Positions 6,285 to 24,415 of a DNA stretch of 33,011 nucleotides are shown here, in pieces. Numbering within the stretch: position 1 is the stretch's first letter; each line of letters begins with the position of its first letter. Made by a program: the position numbers and the translations under genes. The DNA comes from Alphaproteobacteria bacterium. GTDB taxonomy: Bacteria > Pseudomonadota > Alphaproteobacteria > JAEULF01. The stretch spans positions 1-33,011 of the forward strand of contig JAEULF010000269.1 in NCBI GenBank assembly GCA_016793965.1, read 5' to 3'. The notes under the pieces are model-generated. The model worked only from the letters and a program-made list of their open reading frames with translations, was not told where the DNA came from and did not search any database.

Positions 6285-7394
6285 TCAAGCTTGACGTCGC
6301 GCGGCGATCACTTGAGTCAGCAGGGGCAGACGGGTCGGGAGCGACCGCCCGCGGTCAAAGCCCGCGGCCATCAGCAGCGACCCAATCTCGGCAACGGTGC
6401 GCGCGCGCCCGCTGCCCATCGCCAGCAGATAGAAGCCGAAATAGGCGTCACCGACCGGCTCAGCTCCGGGCGTTCCCGCCAACGGCTCGGCAACCAGGAG
6501 CGTGCCGCCGATCGGGAGCGCACGGTGGGCTGCCTTGAGGATCGCCAGCACCGCCGCGTCATCGTGATCGTGCAGGACGCGCACGATCGAGACGAGATCG
6601 GCCCCGTTCGGCAACGGGTCCACGAGGAAGTCCAGCGCATGCGCCACAGCGCGGTCGCGCAGGCCGAGTTCGTCGAAGCGCGCCTGCGCCAGCGCCGCCA
6701 CAGCCGGCAGGTCGGCCAGCATCAGGCGCAACTTCGGCCAGCGCTCGGCCGCAGCGGCGAGGAACACGCCGGCGCCGCCGCCGACGTCGAGCAAGCAGCG
6801 ATGCTGGCGCATCGGGTAGGCGTCGAGGATCTCGGCAGCGATGAAGGATTGCGACGCAGCCATAAGCGCCGAGTAGGGCACCACCCCGTCGCTCGGCAGC
6901 GCGGCCGGCCGGTCGGTGCCGGCATAGGGCCAGAACCCGGCCAGCGCCCCTGCCGGCCGCTCGCCGCGCAGCAAGGCGACGGGGTCCTGGAGATCGGCAT
7001 AGAGCAGGGCATGATGCTCGATCAGCGGCCCCAGCGCCGGATTGCCGCGGAGGGCGGCCCCCAGGACCCCGAGACCGAAGCGCCCGCCACGGCGCGGCGC
7101 GACCAGGCCCAAGGCGGCTGCCGCGCGCAGCAGGCGCTCCGCCGCGCCCGGCGACAGCCCGGTCCGCTCGGCCACCACGGCTGGCGCGCACGGCGATCCG
7201 GCAAGCACGTCGAACAGGCGCAACCGCACGCAGGCCAGGAGCACCTGCGAGTAGACGAATCCCGCGCAGAGATCGAACAGCGCGCGCGCCTGGCGGCGTG
7301 CGATCGGTCGCGTGAAGGGCAGCATGGCCGCCCAACGCTGGAAGCGGGAGCTGGCAAGCCAGCGGTCGCGCAGCGCAAGCAACCGGTCGAGCAT
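6285..7394 (-). CDS. crtF: Demethylspheroidene-type carotenoid O-methyltransferase
   Basis: 369 residues. CrtF methylates the 1-hydroxy group of acyclic carotenoids with S-adenosylmethionine, giving the methoxy ends of spheroidene and spirilloxanthin. An N-terminal winged-helix dimerisation region (VVAERTGLSPGAAERLLRAA) precedes the methyltransferase fold. The SAM-binding glycine loop LLDVGGGAGVFLAAA is clear, and VLHDHDD fits the small-molecule O-methyltransferase family. It starts 22 nt after crtE, so crtEF is one operon, and ends just before the bchC control region. Confidence 0.95.
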   Translation of the reverse strand: MLDRLLALRDRWLASSRFQRWAAMLPFTRPIARRQARALFDLCAGFVYSQVLLACVRLRLFDVLAGSPCAPAVVAERTGLSPGAAERLLRAAAALGLVAPRRGGRFGLGVLGAALRGNPALGPLIEHHALLYADLQDPVALLRGERPAGALAGFWPYAGTDRPAALPSDGVVPYSALMAASQSFIAAEILDAYPMRQHRCLLDVGGGAGVFLAAAAERWPKLRLMLADLPAVAALAQARFDELGLRDRAVAHALDFLVDPLPNGADLVSIVRVLHDHDDAAVLAILKAAHRALPIGGTLLVAEPLAGTPGAEPVGDAYFGFYLLAMGSGRARTVAEIGSLLMAAGFDRGRSLPTRLPLLTQVIAARRQA

Positions 7395-7416
7395 GCTGCA
7401 GCGCCCGTCGGCCCCG

Positions 7417-8283
7417 TCAGGCAGCCGACCGCGCCAGCCTTCTGGGCATCAGGCGACGCGCCTCGGAGGCGATCAAGGCGCGCAGCTCGTCGGCGCGCGC
7501 ACATGGCGGGATCGCATCGATCGCCCGTGCGACGAGGCGCTCGAGGTGCGCGACCGTGCCGGGAATGCCGAGCGCCGCGACCACGCTCGGCCGCCCGAGC
7601 GCCGCGTCGCGCGCGGTCGGCTTGCCGATCTCGTCCTCGTCGCTTGCCGCGTCGCGCAGGTCGTCTGCGACCTGATAGGCCTCGCCCAACGTTTCGCCGA
7701 GCTGCCGCCAGCCGTCCGGCGACGCGCCGGCGGCGACAGCGCCCGCCACCGCGGCAGCGGAGAACAGCGACCCGGTCTTCGCCCGGTGGTACTCGCGCAG
7801 ATCGGCCTTGGGCTCGCATTCCCACGCCTGGCCGGCCACGATGCCCGCTGGCATGCCGACCGACCGCGCGATCACGAGCGTCAATGGCACGATGCGTTGC
7901 GGCGCGCAGGCGACCTGCGCCACTGCCTGGAACGCCAGGACGATCAACGCGTCGCCCGCCAGCACCGCCAACGGCTCGCCGAACGCGCGATGCACCGAGG
8001 GCTTGCCGCGCCGGGTCGCAGCGTCGTCGAAGCATGGCAGGTCGTCATGCACGAGCGAGGCGCAGTGCAGGAGCTCGATCGCCGCCGCAGCCGCGTCCGG
8101 CAATGCCTGGTCGTCGCTGCCGCAGGCCCCCGCCACTGCCAGGCAGAGGCGCGGCCGTACGCGTGCTCCCTGCGGGAACACCGCGTGGCGCATCGCTTCC
8201 GCCAGCCGCGGCGGACTGCCGGTGCCTTCAGCCAAGTCGAGGGCAGCATGCAACGCGCGCTCGATGCGTCCGACCGTGTCCAT
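7417..8283 (-). CDS. crtE: Geranylgeranyl diphosphate synthase
   Basis: 288 residues, a trans-isoprenyl diphosphate synthase that makes the C20 precursor of carotenoids and of the bacteriochlorophyll tail. The first Asp-rich motif is LVHDDLPCFDD and the second is YQVADDLRD; the substrate-binding GARVRPRL is also present. The reading frame is open 13 codons further upstream, but GGAGG at 8290-8294 sits correctly for the ATG at 8283, and the longer version would run through a PpsR operator. It is the first gene of the crtEF-bchCXYZ-puf superoperon and is divergent from crtD. Confidence 0.95.
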   Translation of the reverse strand: MDTVGRIERALHAALDLAEGTGSPPRLAEAMRHAVFPQGARVRPRLCLAVAGACGSDDQALPDAAAAAIELLHCASLVHDDLPCFDDAATRRGKPSVHRAFGEPLAVLAGDALIVLAFQAVAQVACAPQRIVPLTLVIARSVGMPAGIVAGQAWECEPKADLREYHRAKTGSLFSAAAVAGAVAAGASPDGWRQLGETLGEAYQVADDLRDAASDEDEIGKPTARDAALGRPSVVAALGIPGTVAHLERLVARAIDAIPPCARADELRALIASEARRLMPRRLARSAA

Positions 8284-8303
8284 GATGGGCCTCCAGGGAC
8301 AAC

Positions 8304-8321
8304 TGTACACGAATAATGACA
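8304..8321. promoter_or_regulatory. PpsR/CrtJ operator 1 between crtE and crtD
   Basis: TGTACACGAATAATGACA fits TGT-N12-ACA. It contains ATGACA (8316-8321), a good -35 for crtD. The next site begins 7 bp away. Confidence 0.8.
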
Positions 8322-8344
8322 CTCAATATGTCATGTTGTATAGA
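8316..8344 (+). promoter_or_regulatory. Promoter of crtD
   Basis: ATGACA (8316-8321), 17-bp spacer, TATAGA (8339-8344). Transcription would start near 8352, which excludes the ATG at 8333 as the crtD start and supports a start downstream. A clear -10 for crtE on the other strand could not be assigned. Confidence 0.55.
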
Positions 8345-8346
8345 CA
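8329..8346. promoter_or_regulatory. PpsR/CrtJ operator 2 between crtE and crtD
   Basis: TGTCATGTTGTATAGACA is a full TGTC-N10-GACA palindrome. It contains TATAGA (8339-8344), a -10 spaced 17 bp from ATGACA at 8316-8321. The pair therefore sits across the plus-strand crtD promoter and is placed to control the divergent crtE promoter too. Confidence 0.85.
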
Positions 8347-8389
8347 CATCCTGACGTCGGACCCCATCGCTCTGGAGCCAGGGCAACGC

Positions 8390-9967
8390 TTGCGCACCGA
8401 CCGTGTCATCGTGATCGGCGCCGGGATCGGCGGGCTGACCGCCGCGCTGGTGCTCGCGGCGGATGGCCTTGATGTGACCGTCGTCGAGCGCGCCGACGAG
8501 CCCGGCGGCAAGCTGCGCGAGGCAACCCTCGGTTCGGCCCGCATCGATGCCGGGCCGACTGTCTTCACCATGCGGTGGGTGCTCGAGGAGATCCTGGCCG
8601 CAGCCGGGGCGTCGCTCGCTGCCGAGCTGACGCTCCGACCGGCTGCGCTCTTGGCGCGCCATGCCTGGAGCGAGCGCGCGAGACTCGACCTCTTCGCGGA
8701 CATCGAGCGATCCGCGGACGCTGTCGGCGCATTCGCCGGCGCGGCCGAGGCGCGCCGCTTCCGCGCCTTCAGCGCGCGCGCGCGCAGCGTCTACCGCGCG
8801 CTGGAGCGGCCGTTCATCCGGGCGCAGCGCGTCAGCCCCTGGTCGCTGACGCGCGATTGCGGTCTGCGCGGCATCGGCAGCCTGCTGAGCATCGCGCCGC
8901 ATGCGACGCTATGGCAGGCCCTCGGCGCGCATTTCGAGGATGGGCGGCTGCGCCAGCTGTTCGGCCGCTATGCGACTTATGTCGGCTCCTCGCCGTTCCA
9001 GGCGCCGTCGACCCTGATGCTGATCGCGCACGTCGAGCAGGACGGCGTGTGGCTGGTCGAGGGCGGCATGCATCGGATCGCGCGCTTGCTGGCGCGGCTG
9101 GCTGCGACGAAAGGAGCGCGCCTGCGCTATGCCGCGGAAGCGAGCGAGATCCAGCTTGAGGGCGGCCGCGTTGCCGCGGTCCGCCTGAGCACGGGCGAGC
9201 GCATCGAGGCCGATGCCGTCATCGTCAACGCCGACGTCGCGTCCCTGGCCGGCGGCAAGCTCGGCCGCGATGCGGCCGCGGCCGTGCCTGCGATGCCGCG
9301 CGCCGGCCGCTCGCTCTCCGCCGTCACCTGGGCGCTGGTGGCCGAGACCGAAGGGTTTCCGCTGCAGCGCCACAACGTGTTCTTCTCCAGCGACTACGCG
9401 GCCGAGTTCGAGGACATCTTCCGCTGCGCGCGGCTCCCGCTGTCGCCCACCGTCTATGTCTGCGCGCAGGACCGCGATGGCGGCGCGGATCGAGCGGCGC
9501 GCGGGCCGGAGCGGCTGCTCTGCCTCGTCAACGCGCCGCCGACCGGCGACACGCATCCTTTCGACGCCACGGAGATCGAGCAATGCGCGGACCGGACCTT
9601 CGGCCTGCTGCGCCGCTGCGGACTGACGGTTCGCCGCAGGCCCGAGCTGACGGCGGTGACGACGCCCGCAGGTTTCGAGCGCCTGTTCCCGGGGACGGGC
9701 GGGGCGCTCTACGGCCAGGCGACGCACGGCTGGAAGGCGTCCTTCGCCAGGCCGACGGCGCGCACGCGGATTCCGGGCCTGTACCTCGCGGGGGGCAGCG
9801 CGCATCCGGGAGCGGGCTTGCCGATGGCGGCCCTGTCCGGGCGGATGGCAGCGTCCTGCCTGATGGCGGATCGCTCGGGGCGGAGCCCGGCGCGACGCAT
9901 GGGGGGCCACGCTTCGACGCCCGGGTCGCGCCCGGCGGCTACGCCTGGTGGTACGCCGACGCGCTGA
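8390..9967 (+). CDS. crtD: Hydroxy/methoxyneurosporene desaturase (C-3,4 desaturase)
   Basis: About 525 residues. CrtD is an FAD-dependent phytoene-desaturase-family enzyme that introduces the 3,4 double bond in acyclic hydroxy or methoxy carotenoids. The Rossmann motif VIVIGAGIGGLTAALVLA is near the N-terminus and the FAD C-terminal motif GLYLAGGSAHPGAGLPMA near the end. A TTG at 8390 gives the usual short N-terminus (MRTDRVIVIG) with AGGG 6 nt before it. The only upstream ATG (8333) lies inside a PpsR operator and before the likely transcription start. The last 23 codons overlap the crtC coding region in another frame. Confidence 0.88.
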   Translation: MRTDRVIVIGAGIGGLTAALVLAADGLDVTVVERADEPGGKLREATLGSARIDAGPTVFTMRWVLEEILAAAGASLAAELTLRPAALLARHAWSERARLDLFADIERSADAVGAFAGAAEARRFRAFSARARSVYRALERPFIRAQRVSPWSLTRDCGLRGIGSLLSIAPHATLWQALGAHFEDGRLRQLFGRYATYVGSSPFQAPSTLMLIAHVEQDGVWLVEGGMHRIARLLARLAATKGARLRYAAEASEIQLEGGRVAAVRLSTGERIEADAVIVNADVASLAGGKLGRDAAAAVPAMPRAGRSLSAVTWALVAETEGFPLQRHNVFFSSDYAAEFEDIFRCARLPLSPTVYVCAQDRDGGADRAARGPERLLCLVNAPPTGDTHPFDATEIEQCADRTFGLLRRCGLTVRRRPELTAVTTPAGFERLFPGTGGALYGQATHGWKASFARPTARTRIPGLYLAGGSAHPGAGLPMAALSGRMAASCLMADRSGRSPARRMGGHASTPGSRPAATPGGTPTR

Positions 9968-12061: not shown

Positions 12062-13535
12062 CCGGCACCACCTTGTCGAGAATCCGCGCCGAGGAGAGGA
12101 CGCCCGGCAGTCCCGCGCCGGGATGCGTTCCCGCGCCGACGAGGTAGAGCCGGTCGATCTCCTCGCTCCTATTGTGCGGCCGAAACCATGCGCTTTGCCA
12201 GAGGACAGGTTCGAGCCCGAAGGCAGCCCCCTGGAACGACAGGAGGCGGTCGCGAAAGTCCTGCGGCGTCGTCACGCGCGAGGTGACGACCTGCTCGGCC
12301 AGCCCGGGCAGGAGGGTCGCGGCCAAGTGGCGCTCGATCGCCTGCCGGTACGGCTCGGCCTGCTGGCTCCAGTCGATGCCGCCGCCCAGGTGGGGGACGG
12401 GCGACAGGACGTAGAAGGCGTCGCAGCCCGCCGGCGCCAGCGACGGGTCGGTGGCCGTCGGCCGGTGCAGGTAGAGGCTGAAATCCGCGGCAAGCACCTT
12501 GCGCGAGAAGATGTCGGCGAGGAGCGCCCGGTAGCGCGGTCCCATCAGGATCGTATGGTGCGGCACCTCGGGATAGCGCCGGCGCGTGCCGAAGTACCAG
12601 ACGAACAGGCCGTTTGAGTAGCGCGCGCCCTCGATGCGCCGGTCGGTCCAGCGCCTGCGATGCGCGGACGGGAGCAGGTGCCGGTACGTCCACGCCGAGT
12701 CGGCATTGGACACGACGATGTCGGCCGCGATCGTCTCGCCGGACGCCAGCCGCACGCCCACGGCCCTGCCGCCCGCGACCAGGATCTCCGTCGCTTCCGC
12801 GCCGCAGCGCAGCGCGCCGCCCTGCCCCGCGACCAGGTCGGCGAGGCCCTGCACCAGCCGTCCCGTGCCGCCCATCGCCGACCATACGCCCCAGCGCCGC
12901 TCCAAATGCGCGATGAGCGCGTAGATCGAGGCGACGCTGAACGGGTTGCCGCCGATCAGCAGGGGGTGGAAGCTCAGCACCATGCGCAGGCGCGGGTCGC
13001 GCACGTGCTTGGCGACCAGGCCGTGGACCGTGCGGTAGCTCTCGAGCCGGAGCATGGCAGGAACGATGCGCGCCATGTCGCGCCAGGAGCTGAACGGCAG
13101 GTCGCCGAGCTGCTCGAAGCCGATCTTGTAGATCGCCTCGGCCGCCGCCATGAATCGCTCGTATCCCGCGACGTCGGCCGGGGCCAGGCGAGCGACCTCC
13201 GCGCGCATCGCCGCTGCGTCGCCGCTGTAGTCGAAGCAATTGCCGTCGTCGAAGCGGATGCGGTAGAACGGCGCCATGAGGCGGAGCTCGACGTCGTCCG
13301 CTAGGCGACGGCCGCAGAGGCCCCAGAGCTCGTCGAGGAGGAAGGGCGCGGTGATGATCGTCGGCCCGGCGTCGAAGGTGAACCCGTCCTGGCGGTGGAC
13401 GTAGGCGCGGCCGCCGGGCGCGTCGAGCCGCTCCAGCACGGTCACGCGATAGCCGCGGGCGCCGAGGCGGACCGCCGCGGCCAGGCCGCCGAAGCCGCTG
13501 CCGATCACCACCGCGTGCGGCGCGGTCCCGGTCAC
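12039..13535 (-). CDS. crtI: Phytoene desaturase
   Basis: 498 residues, an FAD enzyme that introduces the double bonds turning phytoene into neurosporene or lycopene. The N-terminal dinucleotide motif is VVIGSGFGGLAAAVRLG, followed by GGRAYVHRQDGFTFDAGPT. The C-terminal carotenoid-desaturase signature is LYLVGAGTHPGAGLPGV. The start is a GTG at 13535 that shares GTGA with the bchO stop, with GGAGG about 10 nt upstream. The number of desaturation steps cannot be read from sequence, but crtC, D and F without crtA favour spirilloxanthin as end product. Confidence 0.95.
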   Translation of the reverse strand: MTGTAPHAVVIGSGFGGLAAAVRLGARGYRVTVLERLDAPGGRAYVHRQDGFTFDAGPTIITAPFLLDELWGLCGRRLADDVELRLMAPFYRIRFDDGNCFDYSGDAAAMRAEVARLAPADVAGYERFMAAAEAIYKIGFEQLGDLPFSSWRDMARIVPAMLRLESYRTVHGLVAKHVRDPRLRMVLSFHPLLIGGNPFSVASIYALIAHLERRWGVWSAMGGTGRLVQGLADLVAGQGGALRCGAEATEILVAGGRAVGVRLASGETIAADIVVSNADSAWTYRHLLPSAHRRRWTDRRIEGARYSNGLFVWYFGTRRRYPEVPHHTILMGPRYRALLADIFSRKVLAADFSLYLHRPTATDPSLAPAGCDAFYVLSPVPHLGGGIDWSQQAEPYRQAIERHLAATLLPGLAEQVVTSRVTTPQDFRDRLLSFQGAAFGLEPVLWQSAWFRPHNRSEEIDRLYLVGAGTHPGAGLPGVLSSARILDKVVPDARDLAR

Positions 13536-14443
13536 GGCGCGGCCTCCACGAGCGGCGCCACGTCCTGCGGGCGCTCCTCGTGCGCCAAGTGGCCGAGGCC
13601 CGGCAGGCGCACGATCTCGGCGGCCGGCAGTCGCGCGCGCGCGATCTGCGCCTCGTGCGGGCTGATCGTCCTGTCGCGCAGGCCCACCGCCAGCACGAGA
13701 GGCGGCTTGAGGTCCGGCAGCGCCCGAGCCAGTGGCTCCAGGTCCCATCCGGCCATCATCTGGAAGGCAGCGGCGACATGGGCGGGCGACCGCGCGAGGC
13801 GCGCATAGAGCGCGATGCCGGCCGCGTCGAGCGTCGAGCCCGTGTCGGCGATCAGCCGCGCCACCACGCGCGGGCTGGCAGCGGCGTGGCAGGCGAACAG
13901 GCGCGGCACCAGCCGACTGCGCGCGCAGAGCCGCGCGAGCGGCGAGAAAAGGTGGCCCGGCAGGCCGCGCAACGGCAGGAGGGCGCCGTTAAGGCTGAGG
14001 ATGCGCCGCGGCGCGATCGCGCCGTCGAGCCCCATGCGCACGAGGATGGCGGCGCCGGCGGAGTGGCCGACGACGACGGACGGCGCCGCACCGAGCGCGC
14101 GCAGCAGCGCGCCGAGCGCGGCGGCCATGCCCGGCAGCGTCATGCGGCGCAGCGGCAGCGCCTGCGAGAAGGCGTGCCCGGGCAGGTCGGGCGCGATCAC
14201 CGTGAAGCGCTCGGCCAGGAGCGGCGCGAGGCCGCGCCAGGAATGGGTCGAGGCGCCGGTGCCGTGCACGAGCAAAGCCACCGGGCCGCTGCCGAGCTGC
14301 TGCACATGCCAGCGCAGCCCGTCCGCTTCGACAAAACGGCTGGCGTCGCGCAGCGGCCAATCGCGACCGTCGCTCTCCCACGTCAAGCTGCCGCTCACCT
14401 GATGCACAGACGCAGCACGTCCGTCCCTTCTGCGCCGCGGCAC
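13532..14443 (-). CDS. bchO: Alpha/beta hydrolase BchO (Mg-chelatase-associated)
   Basis: 303 residues with the longest start. BchO genes accompany bchI/bchD in purple bacteria; a role in Mg insertion is proposed but the reaction is unknown. The oxyanion segment LLVHGTGASTHSW, nucleophile elbow GHSAGAAIL and C-terminal LPGLGHLAHEERP give a complete Ser-His hydrolase signature. The family N-terminus (WESDGRDWPLRDASRFV) begins about residue 21, so a later start is likely: GTG at 14407 or 14398, or TTG at 14386 with AGGTGA before it. The stop overlaps crtI. It is separated from bchD by three Calvin-cycle genes on the same strand. Confidence 0.9.
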   Translation of the reverse strand: MPRRRRDGRAASVHQVSGSLTWESDGRDWPLRDASRFVEADGLRWHVQQLGSGPVALLVHGTGASTHSWRGLAPLLAERFTVIAPDLPGHAFSQALPLRRMTLPGMAAALGALLRALGAAPSVVVGHSAGAAILVRMGLDGAIAPRRILSLNGALLPLRGLPGHLFSPLARLCARSRLVPRLFACHAAASPRVVARLIADTGSTLDAAGIALYARLARSPAHVAAAFQMMAGWDLEPLARALPDLKPPLVLAVGLRDRTISPHEAQIARARLPAAEIVRLPGLGHLAHEERPQDVAPLVEAAP

Positions 14444-14444
14444 G

Positions 14445-15326
14445 CTAGCGGCCCTGCGCCTGCTTGCGCCGCTCCATCAGCCGCCAGATCATCGGCGTGA
14501 AGATGAGCTGCATCGCGAGGTCCATCTTTCCTCCCGGGCAAACGATCGTGTTGGGCCGGGACATGAACGAATCATGCAGCATGGAGAGCAAGTAAGGGAA
14601 GTCGATGCCGCGCGGGTTGGCGAAGCGGATCACGAGCATGCTCTCGTCTGCTGACGGGATGTGGCGAGAAATGAAGGGATTGGACGTGTCGACCACGGGC
14701 ACGCGCTGAAAGTTGATGTGCGTGCGCGAGAACTGCGGGCAGATGTAGTGCACGTAGTCGTGCATGCGGCGCAGGATCGTGTCGGTGACGGCTTCGGTGC
14801 TGTAGCCGCGCGTAGCCTTGTCGCGGTGCAACTTCTGGATCCATTCCAGGTTGATCACCGGGACGACGCCGATGAGCAGATCGACATGCCGCGCGACGTC
14901 GGCGCTGCCGATCGCAGCCGCACCGTGCAGCCCCTCGTAGAACAGCAGGTCCGTCCCCGCGGGAACGTCTTCCCAAGGCGTGAACGTGCCCGGCGGGCAT
15001 CCGCACTGCTCTGCCTCCGCTTCGTCATGCACGTACTTGCGGCGGCGCCCGGTGCCGCTCTCGCCGTACCGGCGGAACAGCGCCTCGAGCTCTTCCAGCA
15101 GGTTCGCTTCCGGGCCGAAATGGCTGAAGGTCGCGCTGCCGCGCGCCACCTCCTCCGCCATCCTTCGCTTCATCGCCGCGCGGTCGTAGCGATGGAAGCT
15201 ATCGCCCTCGACGAAGGCAGCGTCGATACGCTCACGCCGGAAGATCTGCTCGAACGTGCGCATGACCGACGTCGTGCCGGCACCTGACGATCCAGTGATG
15301 GCGATGACCGGGTGCTTGGCGGACAT
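14445..15326 (-). CDS. prkA: Phosphoribulokinase (prokaryotic, octameric type)
   Basis: 293 residues. It phosphorylates ribulose 5-phosphate to the RuBisCO substrate ribulose 1,5-bisphosphate, the Calvin-cycle-specific step. The Walker A loop is ITGSSGAGTTSVMRTFEQIF. Substrate and catalytic segments FVEGDSFHRYDR and LLFYEGLHG and the block VVPVINLEWIQKLHRD are all intact. The length matches the bacterial class I family. The start at 15326 removes a long non-conserved upstream open frame and leaves a 14-nt gap from the fbp-like gene. bchO begins right after its stop. Confidence 0.96.
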   Translation of the reverse strand: MSAKHPVIAITGSSGAGTTSVMRTFEQIFRRERIDAAFVEGDSFHRYDRAAMKRRMAEEVARGSATFSHFGPEANLLEELEALFRRYGESGTGRRRKYVHDEAEAEQCGCPPGTFTPWEDVPAGTDLLFYEGLHGAAAIGSADVARHVDLLIGVVPVINLEWIQKLHRDKATRGYSTEAVTDTILRRMHDYVHYICPQFSRTHINFQRVPVVDTSNPFISRHIPSADESMLVIRFANPRGIDFPYLLSMLHDSFMSRPNTIVCPGGKMDLAMQLIFTPMIWRLMERRKQAQGR

Positions 15327-15340
15327 GCGGCGCCCCGACC

Positions 15341-16411
15341 TCAACCAGTCGCGCGGAACAGGCCACGTGCGCTGAACAGAGGCGCATCGCCGTCCTGCTG
15401 GTGGCCTTCGGAATGATAGGCCTCGACGCGCTCCACCTCGTCGCGCGACCCGAGGGCCAACCCGGTGCACTGGTGCAACTTCGTGGGAACGATGTCCAGC
15501 ACGCGACCGCACCCGGTGCTGGCCCGGCCCCCTGCCTGCTCGACGATGAAGGCGAGCGGATTGGCCGCGCAAAGAAGCTGCAGATGGCCCTCACGCGACG
15601 CCTCGCCGCGGTCGCTGGGGTAGAGGAGCATTCCGCCACGCAGCAGCAGGTGATGCGTCTCGGCGACGACCGAGGCCACCGAACGCGCATTGAAGTCCCG
15701 GCCGCGAGGCCCTGCGCTGCCTGCAAAGCATTCGTCGACATAGCGCTTAGCGGCCGGCTCCCAGAAGCGGCAGGTCGAGGCATCGACGGCGAGTTCGCGC
15801 GCCTCGGCCGGCATAAGGATCGCGGGGTGAGTCAGCATGAACTCGCCGGAGGCGGGGTCGAGGGTGAACCCATGCACGCCCCTGCCGACAGTCATGACCA
15901 GCACGGTCGAGGGGCCGTAGAGGGCATAGCCGGCGCACGCTTGACGCGTACCGGGCTGCAGGAAGTCAGCCGCGGTCGGATCCGCGGTCGCGGATGGTGC
16001 GCGCAAGAGTGAGAACACGCTCCCCACCGTCAGGTTCAAATCGACGTTCGACGATCGGTCGAGCGGATCGACGGCCAGCAGGTACTTGCCACGGATGCGC
16101 CCGGCCGGCACCCGAAAGGGCTGCTCCAACGCCTTCGAGAGGATTCCGGCGAGCAGGCCGCTCCAGTCGATCGCCTTGAGGAATTGGTCGTTGGCAGCCA
16201 GGTCCATGTCGAGCTGCGCCTCTCCGTGCGCGCTGGTCGGCTGCGCCGCGCCGACTGGAGCGCCGAGCCGGCCGTAGGCTGCGAGATTCGCCACGGATCG
16301 GCACGCTTGCGCCACGGCGAGGATCAGCTGGTCCAGGTCTTCCTTTGCGGACGGAAGGCGGCACCGCTCCCCGATCAGGAACTGCGCGAGCGTCACGCGG
16401 GCACCGTGCAT
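15341..16411 (-). CDS. Class I fructose-1,6-bisphosphatase homologue with altered active site
   Basis: 356 residues. The fold and order of motifs are those of class I FBPase (GEAQLDMDLAAND, DPLDRSSNVD, GGMLLYPSD, NPLAFIVEQAGG). By alignment to pig FBPase from memory, several key residues differ: the metal ligands Glu97-Glu98 are Lys93-Ala94, Glu280 is Ala282, Gly122 in DPLDGSS is Arg119, and substrate-binding Tyr244 and Lys274 are Ser244 and His276. Asp115 and Asp118 (DPLD) remain. The start has AGGAGA about 8 nt upstream. Position between prk and cbbY is that of cbbF, but activity as a normal FBPase is doubtful. No symbol is given for that reason. Confidence 0.88.
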   Translation of the reverse strand: MHGARVTLAQFLIGERCRLPSAKEDLDQLILAVAQACRSVANLAAYGRLGAPVGAAQPTSAHGEAQLDMDLAANDQFLKAIDWSGLLAGILSKALEQPFRVPAGRIRGKYLLAVDPLDRSSNVDLNLTVGSVFSLLRAPSATADPTAADFLQPGTRQACAGYALYGPSTVLVMTVGRGVHGFTLDPASGEFMLTHPAILMPAEARELAVDASTCRFWEPAAKRYVDECFAGSAGPRGRDFNARSVASVVAETHHLLLRGGMLLYPSDRGEASREGHLQLLCAANPLAFIVEQAGGRASTGCGRVLDIVPTKLHQCTGLALGSRDEVERVEAYHSEGHQQDGDAPLFSARGLFRATG

Positions 16412-16479
16412 GCGGCTTTCTCCTGGCTCCCGGGCGCATCCCGTGCCGTGCCGGCGCGGGCCGCCGCGAAGCGCGAACG

Positions 16480-17274
16480 TCACGTGGCAGCGGCGCGACT
16501 TGCAGCTGGTCCGCGCGAGTGGAGCAGGCTCTCCACTTGCGCGAGCCCCAGATAGGGAACGCCGCCGAGCCGTGCAGCTAGCAGCGGCGGCAAGGGGTCG
16601 TGGGGATCGCCGAGCGACGGCAGAATCAGGTCGGCAGCCCGGAGATCCTGCCCCCGCGTCCACCGGCTCGGCGTCGCGACTGTCACGAGTCCCGCGGCCT
16701 TGGCTGCCGCAACCCCGTTCGCAGAGTCTTCGAATGCGACTGCGGCGCGCTCGTGGACCCGGAGGGTCGATAGCAGCAGCTCGTAGACGTCGGGGGCCGG
16801 CTTCTTGCGCGCGACCCAGTCGACGCAGACGATCGCCGTCACGATGCGACGCGAGTCCGGCCCGAATGCCGCCGCGACGAGCGACTGAACGTTGGCAGCA
16901 GCAGACGTCGCTGCCAGCCCGACCTTGATCCCGGCGCGCTGCGCGTCCTTTATCAAGCGCTCGACGCCCGGGCGAAGCCGTGCCGCGCTCGAGGACAGGA
17001 GCTCGCCGTAGATCCGCGTCTTCTCCCGATGCACCGACGGGACGAGTTGGCGCAGCCGGGTCTTCTCCGTCGACGTCGTGTCCAAGCGGTCGATATGCGC
17101 CGCCATGCGCTCGACGCCGCCCGACACGGCCAGCAGGTCCGCATAAAGATCCGGCGCCCATTCCCACCCCAATCCGAAAGTAAGGAACGCCTGATTGAAT
17201 GCTTGGCGATGGATTTCCTCTGTATCGACGAGCGTTCCATCTACGTCGAACAGCAGAGCGGCGACCTCAGTCAT
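16480..17274 (-). CDS. cbbY: CbbY-like HAD-family sugar-phosphate phosphatase
   Basis: 264 residues. CbbY proteins remove phosphate from xylulose 1,5-bisphosphate, a misfire inhibitor of RuBisCO. HAD motif I is FDVDGTLVDTEEIHRQAFNQ, motif II is in GLAATSAAANVQSL, motif III Lys is in ARKKPAPDVY and motif IV is VAFEDSANGVAAAKAAG; all are intact. The ATG at 17274 has a strong GGGAGGAG directly after a 5' hairpin. It is the first gene of the block cbbY-fbp-prk, with a 68-nt gap to the fbp-like gene. Confidence 0.9.
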   Translation of the reverse strand: MTEVAALLFDVDGTLVDTEEIHRQAFNQAFLTFGLGWEWAPDLYADLLAVSGGVERMAAHIDRLDTTSTEKTRLRQLVPSVHREKTRIYGELLSSSAARLRPGVERLIKDAQRAGIKVGLAATSAAANVQSLVAAAFGPDSRRIVTAIVCVDWVARKKPAPDVYELLLSTLRVHERAAVAFEDSANGVAAAKAAGLVTVATPSRWTRGQDLRAADLILPSLGDPHDPLPPLLAARLGGVPYLGLAQVESLLHSRGPAASRAAAT

Positions 17275-17762
17275 GTAATGCTCCTCCCTTTATCTCAGGT
17301 CTTTGCGCAGACCGAGATTTTTTATAAGGCCGGCGAAAGCACCGGGTCACCGACGTCAAGTCATCGCAAAACCACAGATCGCGAGCATGCCCCCCCGGAT
17401 CCCCACGCCAGGTCACTCGACAGCGGCAGCCTCGCGGAACGATGCCCCGCCGAAAGCCGGCTCTCCTCACGCAGGTCGATGCAATGGCGGGCAGCGTACG
17501 CAGCAGCGACGCCCAGCACGAGTTGCGCGGGCTCCTGCGACAGACCGGCTGTTGGCAGGGCCAATCCCGCCCATTGCCTGGGAACTCGACGCGGTGCGCG
17601 ACGCGCGCAACCATGCCCTGGCCGGGGCCGCGGCAGCGGTCCGCGCTCCCTTTGGCGCTTGCCAGGATCACCGCGACGTCTTCGCGGATGCTCATCCGCG
17701 CCCGTGGCCAGACGTTGACGTCGCGCAGTCGATCGCCTTGGCGACGCGCCGACCACATCGTC
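17275..17762. other. 488-nt spacer between bchD and the Calvin block
   Basis: No protein of recognisable family is seen in any frame. Open frames on both strands are rich in Arg, Pro and Cys and resemble random high-GC reading. The only clear element is the leader hairpin at 17292-17323. It may hold the promoter of the Calvin block; no TGT-N12-ACA palindrome was found. A decayed gene cannot be excluded. Confidence 0.5.
17292..17318 (-). promoter_or_regulatory. Hairpin in the cbbY leader, next to the ribosome site
   Basis: ATCTC (17292-17296) pairs with GAGAT (17314-17318) and GGTCT (17298-17302) with AGACC (17309-17313), with one bulged A and a TTGCGC loop. On the minus strand the hairpin ends 3 nt before GGGAGGAG and 18 nt before the cbbY ATG. 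On the plus strand it is followed by six T (17318-17323) and looks like an intrinsic terminator, but no plus-strand gene leads into it. A leader element that affects cbbY translation or mRNA stability is the simplest reading. Confidence 0.45.
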
Positions 17763-19586
17763 CTATCCGGCCGTCGGCATGCCAGCGCGCACGGCGCGCG
17801 ACAGGATGGCTGCGTCGGCCTGCGGCAGCGGCACATAGCGCGCGCCCATCGCCTCAGCGAGGCGGCGGGCGGGCGGCTGCGGCTGCGGAGCCGTGTCCAA
17901 GAGGATTGCGGCGATGCCTCCAGCTCGAACCTGTTCTGCTGCCTGCAGCGCCTCCGCCTCAGCACGCTGCCGGCCGCCGCTTCCGTCGCGCGCCACGTTT
18001 GCGCGACCGTCCGTCAGCAGCACCAAGACCGGCGTCTGTCCCCGGCGCGCGGCTGCCGCGGCGACCGCCGCAGCGGCATCGATGCCGGCCGCGAGCGGAG
18101 TACCGCCACCGCCCGGGAGGCCGGCAAGGCTTCGCTTGGCGCGCACGAGCGATCGCGTTGGCGGCAGGAGCAGGTCCGCACCGCGGCCGCGGAACGCGAC
18201 GACGCTGACCTGGTCGCGCCGCGCGTAGCAGTCGGCAAGGAGGAGTTCGACGGCCCCCTTCGCCTCCGCCAGCCGATGCAGTGCTGCCGAGCCAGAGGCG
18301 TCGACGACGAAGATCGTCGCGGATTCCGCGCGATGCTTGAACCGCCGGACACGAAAGTCCTCGGCCCGCGTCAGGACGCGGCGGGATGGAAGGCCACGCT
18401 GCGCGGCGTCGCGCTGCCGCAGCGGCTGCCAGGGAGCCGCTGCGCGCAGAGTCTCGACCAGTGCCAATCGGTTCGTCCCGCCTGGCTTGCCTGGTCGAGC
18501 TCCTGCTGGTCGGCCTCGGCGCGCTGAACGCTTCTGCGCTCCGGCGCGCCCTGCAGATGCCGCCCCCCTGCCCACCGCGCCACCCAGGCGGATCTGCGCC
18601 AGAAGTCCAGACGGGATCGATGCCTGGGCGGCAGCGAGGACAATGTCTCCGAGCGACTTGTCGGGCATGCCGGCGCTGCCCTCGGTTGATTCGGCATGGC
18701 CCTCGGACGGCGATGCCGGATCCGCATCGTCGGCCGGCGTTTCGTCAGTCGGACGGCCGTCAGCCTGCGGGCCAGCGGCCGGCACCGTCGTTGCGCGCGG
18801 CGCCAGGACGAGGCGGGCAGCTGTCGCCGCGTCCTCGGCCGCGACCATGCGGCGGCCATCGAGCGCCGCCGCGGCGCGCGCGACGCATAGCGCAAGGAGC
18901 GGCGCCCGTAGCGAAGCGACGCCCAGCACGGCTGCCGCCGCGCAAAGCGCCTCGACCACCGACTCAGAGGCGTCGATCTCGGGCAGCAGCAGTCGCGCCG
19001 CGTCGATGTCGGCGCGCACAAGCGACACGCCCGCAGCCGCGGCGACGCCGACCGGCGTCAGGTCGACGCGCAAGGCAAGCCGCTCGAGAAGCACCTCCGG
19101 AGGATGCTCGTCGGGCGCAAGTCCTTCGTCGAGGGCGACGACCCCGAAGCTCACCGTCTGGCGCAGCGACAGGCCTTCGCGCTCGACCGACACCGTGCCG
19201 GCATCGAGCGCTGCACTGAGCATCCCGGCTGCCGCCGGGGCAAGTCGCTCTGCCATGCCGACGAGGAGCAGGCCGCCGTTCGCCTCGGCAATCAGCCCGC
19301 GCTCGGCGACCGGCCGGCCGGCGCGAAGGGTTGCCGCCAGGTCCAGGCTACCGAGGAGGCGGGCATCGGAGACGTGTGCCGGGACCCGACGCAGGGGCAT
19401 CGCCTCCGGCACCAAAGACCGCAGTAGGTCGAGCCATCGGTCGCGCACTGGTCCAGCCCCGGCGCGGAGCACGACGCCGCCGCATCCCCTCGGGTCGACA
19501 GCGACCAACGCGGCCGCGCGCACGGCATCGTTCCATGCGGAGGACGCCACGCTACCGTCGGCGCCACCAGTCTCCGGGACGATCAT
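17763..19586 (-). CDS. bchD: Magnesium chelatase subunit D
   Basis: 607 residues. BchD forms with BchI the AAA+ platform that drives insertion of Mg2+ into protoporphyrin IX by BchH. The N-terminal half (to about residue 250) is a degenerate AAA+ module. A low-complexity acidic and Pro-rich linker (about 265-310) follows. The C-terminal von Willebrand A domain has an intact MIDAS: VVDASGSAALHRLAEAKGAV, the Thr in PGGGGTPLAAGID, and LLTDGRANV. The start ATG overlaps the bchI stop as ATGA. Unlike the common order, bchO does not follow directly. Confidence 0.95.
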   Translation of the reverse strand: MIVPETGGADGSVASSAWNDAVRAAALVAVDPRGCGGVVLRAGAGPVRDRWLDLLRSLVPEAMPLRRVPAHVSDARLLGSLDLAATLRAGRPVAERGLIAEANGGLLLVGMAERLAPAAAGMLSAALDAGTVSVEREGLSLRQTVSFGVVALDEGLAPDEHPPEVLLERLALRVDLTPVGVAAAAGVSLVRADIDAARLLLPEIDASESVVEALCAAAAVLGVASLRAPLLALCVARAAAALDGRRMVAAEDAATAARLVLAPRATTVPAAGPQADGRPTDETPADDADPASPSEGHAESTEGSAGMPDKSLGDIVLAAAQASIPSGLLAQIRLGGAVGRGAASAGRAGAQKRSARRGRPAGARPGKPGGTNRLALVETLRAAAPWQPLRQRDAAQRGLPSRRVLTRAEDFRVRRFKHRAESATIFVVDASGSAALHRLAEAKGAVELLLADCYARRDQVSVVAFRGRGADLLLPPTRSLVRAKRSLAGLPGGGGTPLAAGIDAAAAVAAAAARRGQTPVLVLLTDGRANVARDGSGGRQRAEAEALQAAEQVRAGGIAAILLDTAPQPQPPARRLAEAMGARYVPLPQADAAILSRAVRAGMPTAG

Positions 19587-20829: not shown

Positions 20830-20860
20830 GGCCCAAATGCGAAGCAGTAAGAAGGCCAAT

Positions 20861-22222
20861 ATGCCAACTCTTAGTATCGCTCAGCCGGACATCACCCTCC
20901 GCTTGGACCTCAACGGGGTGATCCGCGAAGCTTCGTTCTCCGACATCTTCCGCGAAAGCAGCGCCGAGGCGTGGCTGGGCCGAGCCTGGATCGACACCGT
21001 CAACCAGTCCGGTAGCGACCGGGTCAAGCGGATGGTCGATGACGCGCTGACGAAAGGCGTGTCAGCCTTCCAGCAGGTCACGCAGCGATTCCCCAGCGGC
21101 ATCGAGATCCCGATCGAGTACACGGCAGTTCGCCTCGGCGGCAACGATGGGATCTTGGCAGTGGGCAAGAACCTGCAGGCGGTCGCGGAGCTGCAGACCA
21201 GGCTCATCGCGGCGCAGCAGGCCATGGAGCGCGACTATTGGAAGCAGCGCGAGATCGAGACGCGCTATCGCCTCTTGTTCGACGCGTCGAACGAGGCAGT
21301 ACTGCTGATCACGACGGCGTCGCTCGATATCGTCGAAGCGAACCCGGCAGCTATCAGAGCGCTCGGCGTCAATCCGGTCGGACGGGAGTTCCTCCTCGAA
21401 CTTCCGCTCCAAGAGCGCGAGACGTTCCAATCCATGCTGCAGCGCGTGCGCGAGCACGGCAAGGCGCCGGGCGTGCTCCTGCACCTCGGACGCAACCGCG
21501 ATCCATGGATCATCCGCGCATCGCTCATGCCGGCGGAATCTCGATCGATGTACATGTTGCGCTGTGCCCCGGTGGCGACGACGCAGCCGACCGGGGGGCG
21601 GTTGGAGCGCGTCGACCTGGAGTCGCTTGTCGACCGCATGCCTGACGGCCTCGTCGTTTTTGACCGCGACGGCGCGATCGTCTACGGCAACCGCGCCTTC
21701 CTCGAGCTGATCCAGGTCGGCAGCGAGCGCACGATCGTCGGCGAGCAACTCGCGCGCTGGCTCGGCCGCCCCGGCGCCGACGTGGATCTGCTCGCGTCCC
21801 AGCTGCAGCGCAACGGCAGCGTCCGCCGTTTCACCACCGTGATCAACGGCGAGTTCGGCGCGCAAACAGACGTGGAGATCTCCGCAGTCGCGGGCACGGA
21901 CAACGAGAGGCACTACGCTGCGGCCATCCTGCGCGGCATCGTGCAGAGGCTGCCGCAAGCGAGCCCGGAAGCCAACGAGCAACTCAGCGACATGCTGCGC
22001 GCCCTCGTCACCCGTGTCGGCAAGTCCTCGCTGCAGTCTCTGGTCAAGGAGACGGTCGGCGTCGTCGAGCGTCACTACATCGAGTCGGCGCTCAAGCTCA
22101 CCGCCGGCAATCGGACGGCAGCATCCGAGATCCTAGGGCTCAGCCGTCAGAGCCTCTATTCGAAGCTGGCGCGCTACGGTCTCGACGCTAGCGCCTCGGC
22201 CCAGAGCGAGTCGCAGTATTGA
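20861..22222 (+). CDS. ppsR: Photosynthesis gene repressor PpsR/CrtJ
   Basis: 453 residues. PpsR represses bch, crt and antenna genes under oxygen or, in some species, until a phytochrome relieves it. An N-terminal PAS-like domain (about 1-115) is joined by a Gln-rich helix (LQTRLIAAQQAMERDYWKQR) to two further PAS domains (about 135-235 and 245-370). A Fis-type helix-turn-helix (GNRTAASEILGLSRQSLYSK) forms the C-terminus. The ATG at 20861 has AAGAAGG 5 nt upstream; an ATG at 20837 has no such site. Only one Cys (235) is present, and none in the DNA-binding domain, so the intramolecular disulphide of the Rhodobacter protein cannot form. bphP follows after 18 nt. Confidence 0.95.
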   Translation: MPTLSIAQPDITLRLDLNGVIREASFSDIFRESSAEAWLGRAWIDTVNQSGSDRVKRMVDDALTKGVSAFQQVTQRFPSGIEIPIEYTAVRLGGNDGILAVGKNLQAVAELQTRLIAAQQAMERDYWKQREIETRYRLLFDASNEAVLLITTASLDIVEANPAAIRALGVNPVGREFLLELPLQERETFQSMLQRVREHGKAPGVLLHLGRNRDPWIIRASLMPAESRSMYMLRCAPVATTQPTGGRLERVDLESLVDRMPDGLVVFDRDGAIVYGNRAFLELIQVGSERTIVGEQLARWLGRPGADVDLLASQLQRNGSVRRFTTVINGEFGAQTDVEISAVAGTDNERHYAAAILRGIVQRLPQASPEANEQLSDMLRALVTRVGKSSLQSLVKETVGVVERHYIESALKLTAGNRTAASEILGLSRQSLYSKLARYGLDASASAQSESQY

Positions 22223-22240
22223 ACATGGAGGTGCCGGCGC

Positions 22241-24415
22241 GTGGCGTCCAAGGAACTGGCGACAACGGCCTTCGGCAGGGCTGACCTCTCGAACTGCGAG
22301 CGAGAGCAGATCCATCTGGCGGGATCAATCCAGCCGCATGGCGCCTTGCTCGTCGTCAGGGAGCCTGACCTCGTCGTCATCCAAGCCAGCGCCAACGCCA
22401 GTACGTACCTCGGCATCGGCGCCCCGCTGATCGGAAGGGCCCTCAGCGAGATCGACGGCGACCTGGCGGCGAGCGTGAGGCCTTACCTGGACGACCTGCT
22501 GTGGACCATTCCTGCCGCGGTGCGCTGCCACGTCGGCAGCTGCGCTGCGCGCTTCGATGGCCTCTTGCACAGACCTCCTCAGGGCGGGCTCATCATCGAG
22601 CTAGAGCGCGCCGGGCCGCCGGTCGACCTGTCCGGCAGCGTTGAGAAGGCGCTGCACGCGATCGTCGCCTGCTCGTCGCTGCGCATGCTCTGCGACGAGT
22701 CGGCCCGACGCTTCAAGGACATCACCGGTTACGACCGGGTGATGATCTACCGCTTCGACGAGCAAGGCCACGGCGAGGTCTACTCCGAGGTCCGCAATCC
22801 TTCCTTGGAGTCCTATCTCGGCAACCGCTACCCGGATTCCGATATCCCTCAGATCGCGCGCCGGCTTTACGAGCGCAACCGCGTCCGCCTGCTCGTGGAT
22901 GTGGGCTATGCGCCTGTGCAGCTCGCGCCGAGGCTGTCGCCGGTCACCGGGCAGGAGCTCGACATGTCGCTCTGCTTCCTGCGCAGCATGTCGCCGATTC
23001 ACATACAGTACCTCAAGAACATGGGCGTCGCCGCGACGCTCGTCGCTTCCCTCGTCGTCGGCGGCAAGCTCTGGGGGCTCGTCGCGTGCCACCACTACTC
23101 GCCCCGCGTCGTGCACTATGAGGTCCGCGCGGCATGCGAGGTTCTCGCAGAGACGATCGCCGCGCGCATCGCGGCCCTCGAGAGCTTCGTCCGCGCCCAA
23201 GCGGAGATCTCGGTGCGGCGACTCGAGCAGCGCATGATCGAGGCGATCTCGCGCGACGGCGACTGGCGAAATGCGCTGTTCGATAACTCGCAGTCGCTGC
23301 TGCAGCCGCTCGACGCCACGGGAGCGGCGCTGCTGTTCGAGGGCCAAGTGCTGACCGCCGGCGAAGTGCCAAGCACGCCGCAGCTGCGAGCGGTCGGCGC
23401 GTGGCTCGATCTCCAGCCGCGCGCCCCCATCTTCGTCACCGCCTCGCTCAGCCTGGACGAGACCAATTTCGCGGATCTCAAGGCCGTCGCCAGCGGCCTG
23501 CTCGCCACGCCGGTGTCGGAATCCCAGGGCGAGTATCTCATCTGGTTCCGCCCAGAGCGGATCCGGACGGTGACCTGGGCCGGCGACCCGACCAAGCCGG
23601 TGGTCATCGGCGACAACCCGAGCGACCTCTCGCCCCGTCGGTCCTTCGCGCAATGGCATCAGCGCGTCGAGGGAACGTCCGACCCGTGGACCCAGTCGGA
23701 CCTATCGGCCGCGCGCTTGATCGGCAGCACGGTGACGGACGTCATCCTCCAGTTCCGGGCCGTCCGGCTGCTTATCGCCCAGGACCAGCTGGAGCAGGTG
23801 ACGCGGCAGGTGCGCGTGGCGCAGCTGCCTGTGGCGATCGCCGATTCCGGCGGCAGGATCCTGCTGGCAAACGACGCGCTCCGCCGGTTGCTGCCGGCGG
23901 CACGCCCGCCCCTCGAGCGCGTCGAGCAGCTCGCAACGTACTTCGTCGAGCACGCCGAGATAGGCGAGCGCTTGCGCGAGCTTCTCAATCACTGGCGGAC
24001 CTGGCGCGGCGAGGCCCATCTTGCGCCGACCAGCAGCGGCGCGCAGCCGCTGCTGGTGCGCTTCGACCCCGTGTTCTCCTCACCCGACCGCGTTCAAGGC
24101 TTCGTCCTGCTGTTCACCGACGTGACCGAGCAGAAGGCCGCAGACGCTGCCCGGCGACGCTTCCAGGAGGGGATCATCGAGCGTCATCGCGTGAAGCCCA
24201 CGCACCTCAATTCCAGGGCCGACCTCGTCTACCGCAACCTGCTGGCGACGCTGATGGAGAACGCGCAGCTCGCAGCGCTCGAGATCACCGACGGGGTCGA
24301 CATGGCGCGCATGCAGGAACTGCTGGAGAGCCTGCGCATCTCCGTGGCCCGTTCGGCTGAGGTGCTGGAGCGCCTCGTGTCCCATGCGTCGCGGGATGCC
24401 GAAGACAAGCCCTAG
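22241..24415 (+). CDS. bphP: Bacteriophytochrome without histidine kinase domain
   Basis: 724 residues. A red/far-red photoreceptor that binds biliverdin through Cys19 (NCEREQIHLAGSIQPHG). PAS (about 15-130), GAF (140-310) with DIP at 201-203 and His254 (SPIHIQYL), and PHY (320-510) with tongue motif PRRSF at 465-469 are all intact. A further PAS (about 525-640) and a short helical C-terminus follow, with no H-box or ATPase domain. The same plan occurs in BphP1 of Rhodopseudomonas palustris and BphP of Bradyrhizobium ORS278, which antagonise PpsR directly. The start is GTG 22241, with GGAGG at 22227-22231. Its stop shares CTAG with the heme oxygenase gene. Confidence 0.94.
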   Translation: MASKELATTAFGRADLSNCEREQIHLAGSIQPHGALLVVREPDLVVIQASANASTYLGIGAPLIGRALSEIDGDLAASVRPYLDDLLWTIPAAVRCHVGSCAARFDGLLHRPPQGGLIIELERAGPPVDLSGSVEKALHAIVACSSLRMLCDESARRFKDITGYDRVMIYRFDEQGHGEVYSEVRNPSLESYLGNRYPDSDIPQIARRLYERNRVRLLVDVGYAPVQLAPRLSPVTGQELDMSLCFLRSMSPIHIQYLKNMGVAATLVASLVVGGKLWGLVACHHYSPRVVHYEVRAACEVLAETIAARIAALESFVRAQAEISVRRLEQRMIEAISRDGDWRNALFDNSQSLLQPLDATGAALLFEGQVLTAGEVPSTPQLRAVGAWLDLQPRAPIFVTASLSLDETNFADLKAVASGLLATPVSESQGEYLIWFRPERIRTVTWAGDPTKPVVIGDNPSDLSPRRSFAQWHQRVEGTSDPWTQSDLSAARLIGSTVTDVILQFRAVRLLIAQDQLEQVTRQVRVAQLPVAIADSGGRILLANDALRRLLPAARPPLERVEQLATYFVEHAEIGERLRELLNHWRTWRGEAHLAPTSSGAQPLLVRFDPVFSSPDRVQGFVLLFTDVTEQKAADAARRRFQEGIIERHRVKPTHLNSRADLVYRNLLATLMENAQLAALEITDGVDMARMQELLESLRISVARSAEVLERLVSHASRDAEDKP

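Follow-up and report, generated by a model that had tools for sequence, protein, structure and literature searches.

The cbbF gene at positions 15341..16411 (minus strand) of the window, the whole 33,011-nucleotide stretch of alphaproteobacterial contig JAEULF010000269.1 analysed here, encodes a class I FBPase homologue that profiles and alignment show to be stripped of residues in both its metal site and its substrate site. The explanation considered most probable, although it is held with measured rather than strong confidence, is that CbbF lost its FBPase activity once GlpX covered the reaction, and that it persists as a folded protein in a reduced operon, with the constraint on it weakened. 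The protein has lost active-site residues and remains a homologue at the family level, its rate of evolution has shifted, glpX is present in the genome, and a relic of cbbX lies close to the gene.

The 356-amino-acid product is covered end to end by the domains PF00316 (146.8 bits) and PF18913 (114.2 bits) and scores 371 bits against NF006779, the NCBIfam model for class 1 FBPase, for which the cut-off is 349 bits; by profile match and the presence of both domains it belongs to the class I FBPase sequence family. The frame is open with zero internal stops, in agreement with the first-pass annotation, which had noted the lack of a frameshift, and a Shine-Dalgarno-like AGGAGA can be read at 16419..16424 (minus strand), 7 nt before the ATG. 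Structure prediction, one of the checks proposed at that stage, gave an AlphaFold2 model (23 input sequences) with a pLDDT of 80.5 and a pTM of 0.83, for which the nearest structure is 7k74. The intact CbbF of L010, serving as control, reached 82.3 and 0.84 with identical weak loops, and the idea that structural confidence is lower in the window protein than in an intact relative was rejected because both share these loops. The fold is thus predicted to be intact, like that of the control, and a predicted fold that is kept together with catalytic residues that are lost is the combination expected of a pseudoenzyme.

Active-site residues are given here in pig FBPase numbering, as obtained from an alignment with pig FBPase and relatives. 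The window CbbF has K97, A98, R122, D212, T215, S244, H274, Q276 and A280, at positions where the usual bacterial CbbF has E, E, G, N, N, W, K/R, R and E, respectively. Relative to the pig enzyme the replacement of Glu97-Glu98 by Lys-Ala (E97K, E98A), G122R, Y244S, K274H and E280A are exactly as the first-pass annotation had read them, and N212D, Y215T and R276Q are additional changes. Retained are E68, D74, D118, D121, S123, S124, N125, R243 and Y264. According to crystal work on muscle FBPase, the metal is ligated by Glu97, Asp118, Asp121 and Glu280, and the phosphate is contacted by the amides of Gly122/Ser123 and by Arg276 (PMC3785478). From the metal site of active class I FBPases (E97, E98, D118, D121, E280) only D118 and D121 remain in the window protein, which, judged by its residue losses and these ligand and contact assignments, would be catalytically dead.

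Such losses are rare among relatives. The metal site is kept in more than 100 of them, the exceptions being one actinobacterial clade and one MAG; among 85 relatives these exceptions are represented by three proteins of the Nocardia family and by L079, from a Rhodocyclaceae MAG. In the 21 same-class homologues, E97, E98, D118, D121, G122, W244, R276 and E280 are kept in all that align there, three of the 21 being partial with positions 97-98 outside their coverage. An alignment placing the Glu residues elsewhere would have overturned this reading, yet the window CbbF aligns with its nearest relatives L009, L010 and L011 with zero gaps, which excludes misalignment and a mere shift of the Glu residues to other positions. 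Sequencing error is implausible given this many substitutions in an open frame. Overall, among 119 columns that show conservation in at least 95% of relatives, the window protein departs from the conserved residue at 21. The density of losses is higher at active-site columns, with a p of 0.012 for one column set and 0.13 for another, and this dependence on the column set leaves the enrichment suggestive and not robust.

The rate of evolution of cbbF differs from that of its neighbour. The window PRK is about 79-80% identical to those of L009 and L010, which equals the identity between L009 and L010, whereas for FBPase the window shares 58-60% with L009 and L010, against 78% between these two. 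In the IQ-TREE family tree, the window CbbF pairs with L009 within the cbb-operon clade and has an end branch of 1.25 compared with 0.12 for this sister, a roughly tenfold difference, while the neighbouring PRK evolves normally; the exact placement is unsure because the branch is so long. In this tree the second FBPase of a same-class genome is closely tied to Rhodospirillaceae, which points to Alphaproteobacteria. A codon model purpose-written for this analysis gave an omega of 0.11 on the window cbbF branch and 0.068 elsewhere, and 0.05 for the window PRK. A dN/dS comparison had been suggested by the first-pass annotation. Setting omega to 1 on the window branch is worse by 30 lnL units, but two omegas improve on one by 1.5 lnL units, a gain that is not significant and that is kept small by the saturation of synonymous sites and by a trade-off between branch length and omega. 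When 150 neutral substitutions were simulated, about 6% of runs remained stop-free, with indels uncounted. The rejection of omega = 1, the lack of gaps and the rarity of stop-free runs together indicate that cbbF was not neutral for most of the branch. Neutrality along the entire branch is rejected, but a recent neutral phase is possible and would fit the raised rate. GC by codon position was examined as a sign of decay, and bchI and bchD look alike in this respect.

The gene sits between a cbbY-like gene (16480..17274, minus strand), whose HAD phosphatase product has the HAD motifs and is 52-57% to CbbY of L010 and L011, and prk (cbbP; 14445..15326, minus strand), which begins 14 nt past the stop codon of cbbF and encodes a phosphoribulokinase with its active-site residues kept. 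Both neighbours are intact, as had been claimed, but what the first-pass annotation called a tight operon is a fragment from which the RuBisCO end is missing. Downstream lies an alpha/beta-hydrolase ORF (13532..14443, minus strand), a putative bchO named by its position, and upstream lies bchD (17763..19586, minus strand); the surrounding photosynthesis gene cluster includes pufL, bchY, bchX, crtD, crtC, bchD and bchI. Elsewhere in the window, at 20837-24415 (plus strand), a PAS-domain regulator-like ORF adjoins a bacteriophytochrome-like ORF that, as read from the sequence, seemingly has no kinase domain, a pair that presumably resembles the PpsR-BphP pairs of phototrophs.

Between bchD and cbbY, on the expected strand (minus), positions 17564..17719 match only residues 167-218 of Cupriavidus CbbX, the RuBisCO activase (E 5e-6). 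The CbbX profile scores 12.6 bits on this relic, compared with a best score of 7.9 in 1000 shuffles, and more cbbX pieces were looked for outside this short match and not found. A complete cbb operon would have RuBisCO and CbbX beside cbbF and prk; the window has the cbbX relic only. In L010 and L011 the gene order is cbbL-S-X-Y, followed by F-P-T and fba, and the syntenic place of the relic marks the window operon, on sequence grounds, as the stump of a cbbLSXYFP-type operon. The RuBisCO end was probably lost from this site, as the relic stands where the L010/L011 order predicts it and the rest of cbbX is unrecognisable.

In the genome, which is 75% complete, a single class I FBPase, a single PRK and a single, full-length glpX were detected, the last located elsewhere and adjoining a homoserine-dehydrogenase-like ORF. 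The earlier expectation that another FBPase would be needed elsewhere is thereby satisfied, and the search for a second fbp or glpX returned glpX only. No match to the large or small subunit of RuBisCO was found in the 75%-complete genome, nor any to CbbX beyond the relic, in a search run with no positive control for CbbX; the incompleteness of the assembly makes these absences weak, and the quarter that is missing may hold RuBisCO. The genome thus has a PRK with all active-site residues, and RuBisCO was not found in the 75% that is available.

According to the preferred explanation, the window protein is a CbbF, a class I FBPase/SBPase of the Calvin cycle, whose FBPase activity would have been lost. 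With GlpX, encoded elsewhere, able to perform the reaction, catalysis by CbbF would no longer have been under selection. Three acidic groups of the metal site (E97, E98, E280) have gone, positions 97 and 122 now carry Lys and Arg, and the sugar-phosphate-holding residues 212, 215, 244, 274 and 276 have been replaced. The gene remained within the photosynthesis cluster, in an operon cut down to the cbbX relic, cbbY, cbbF and prk, and evolved fast under weakened purifying selection, its product being intact and probably still translated and folded. GlpX would have taken over the reaction, and RuBisCO would have been lost or be located elsewhere. Of the outcomes that the first-pass annotation had raised (a non-catalytic or regulatory role, a changed substrate, early decay), branch length, truncated operon and the relic of cbbX point towards catalysis having been lost as constraint relaxed, and early decay fails as a neutral process over the whole branch. 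Against the preferred explanation, a fading of the whole pathway would sit oddly with the full conservation of PRK, allowing two omegas brings no significant gain over one, and glpX coexists with intact CbbF in L009, L018 and L031, so that its presence does not by itself account for the loss. In L009 the actinobacterial FBPase-PRK pair (6629-8610) is on a 17.7 kb stretch with no RuBisCO.

Metal-site changes also occur in other CbbF proteins. A search of 301 Nocardia-family genomes yielded 22 altered loci (L124-L145, among them the genes of L062, L082 and L071), all of them with R276 and E280 lost and all but L143 with E98 lost (21/22); a few have E97Q or E97K, and L132 has K97, as does the window. 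Every one of these 22 genes adjoins prk, cbbS and cbbX, and cbbL is also present at L062, L071 and L082, the loci with longer flanks; at L141 a TAG is reported within the matched frame. CbbF is intact in L150 and in L146-L149, whose short flanks contain prk but neither cbbS nor cbbX. Pairwise omega among the altered proteins lies at 0.01-0.05, on a par with PRK or somewhat higher, and glpX is present in the three Nocardia-family genomes tested. By sequence, the Nocardia-family CbbF appears to be an independent, conserved, metal-site-altered form under strong purifying selection, and its separate clade indicates that loss of the metal site in CbbF has happened at least twice. The Rhodocyclaceae MAG protein (L079:2297-3340) shows another altered metal site, with E98D, D121N, S124G and a long branch.

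The Nocardia-family clade raises the odds of the main rival, in which the window CbbF is a selected regulatory pseudoenzyme with a non-catalytic job, such as binding sugar phosphate, AMP or PRK and so tuning the pathway. Omega well below 1, a gapless sequence, the Shine-Dalgarno-like site and the keeping of D74, D118, D121 and most conserved glycines are consistent with such a role, as are Nocardia-family proteins that evolve slowly without E98, R276 and E280 beside cbbS, cbbX and prk. However, the branch is strongly accelerated with saturated synonymous sites, the highly conserved columns lost suggest weakened constraint here, no partner is known and the active-site enrichment is not robust, and this role is possible but doubtful. 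A broader proposal, that CbbF repeatedly became a conserved non-catalytic PRK partner in GlpX-capable bacteria, both in this phototroph and in many Nocardia-family species beside RuBisCO genes, is similarly tentative. Somewhat less probable again is a pseudogene in early neutral decay, with the Calvin cycle being lost in a photoheterotroph. The cbbX relic, the failure to find RuBisCO and CbbX in the 75%-complete genome and a raised rate that a recent neutral phase would fit speak for it; a pseudogene should however have a broken frame or an omega near 1, whereas cbbF has no stops or gaps and rejects omega = 1 over the whole branch, neutral substitutions on the scale simulated seldom leave a frame open even before indels, PRK shows no relaxation, and the genome in which absences were recorded is incomplete. 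An enzyme with changed substrate or metal use, although compatible with D74, D118, D121, a retained phosphate-binding SSN and an intact predicted fold, is very improbable with three metal-site acidic residues lost, Lys97 and Arg122 introduced and the substrate side stripped too.

Profile-based annotation labels the window CbbF a working class 1 FBPase, so that any model of Calvin-cycle capacity relying on this label would be in error; should the Nocardia-family proteins likewise be inactive, a conserved non-enzyme sits in many cbb operons. No report of an FBPase pseudoenzyme, or of cbbF together with bchD, was found in the literature searched. Among known systems, the CbbF proteins of cbb operons (Cupriavidus pHG1, Azoarcus pAZKH, L010/L011) share family, length, fold and the cbbY-cbbF-prk neighbourhood with the window, but the window CbbF lacks the metal-site and substrate residues, and RuBisCO, cbbX, tkt and fba are missing alongside it. 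GlpX, a class II FBPase, carries out the same reaction as CbbF and is encoded in the same genome, yet it belongs to a different protein family and occupies another genome site. The Nocardia-family CbbF resembles the window protein in the loss of E280 and R276 and, in nearly all loci, of E98; it differs in its separate tree branch, in keeping G122, N212 and W244, in adjoining cbbS, cbbX and prk, and in its strong purifying selection.
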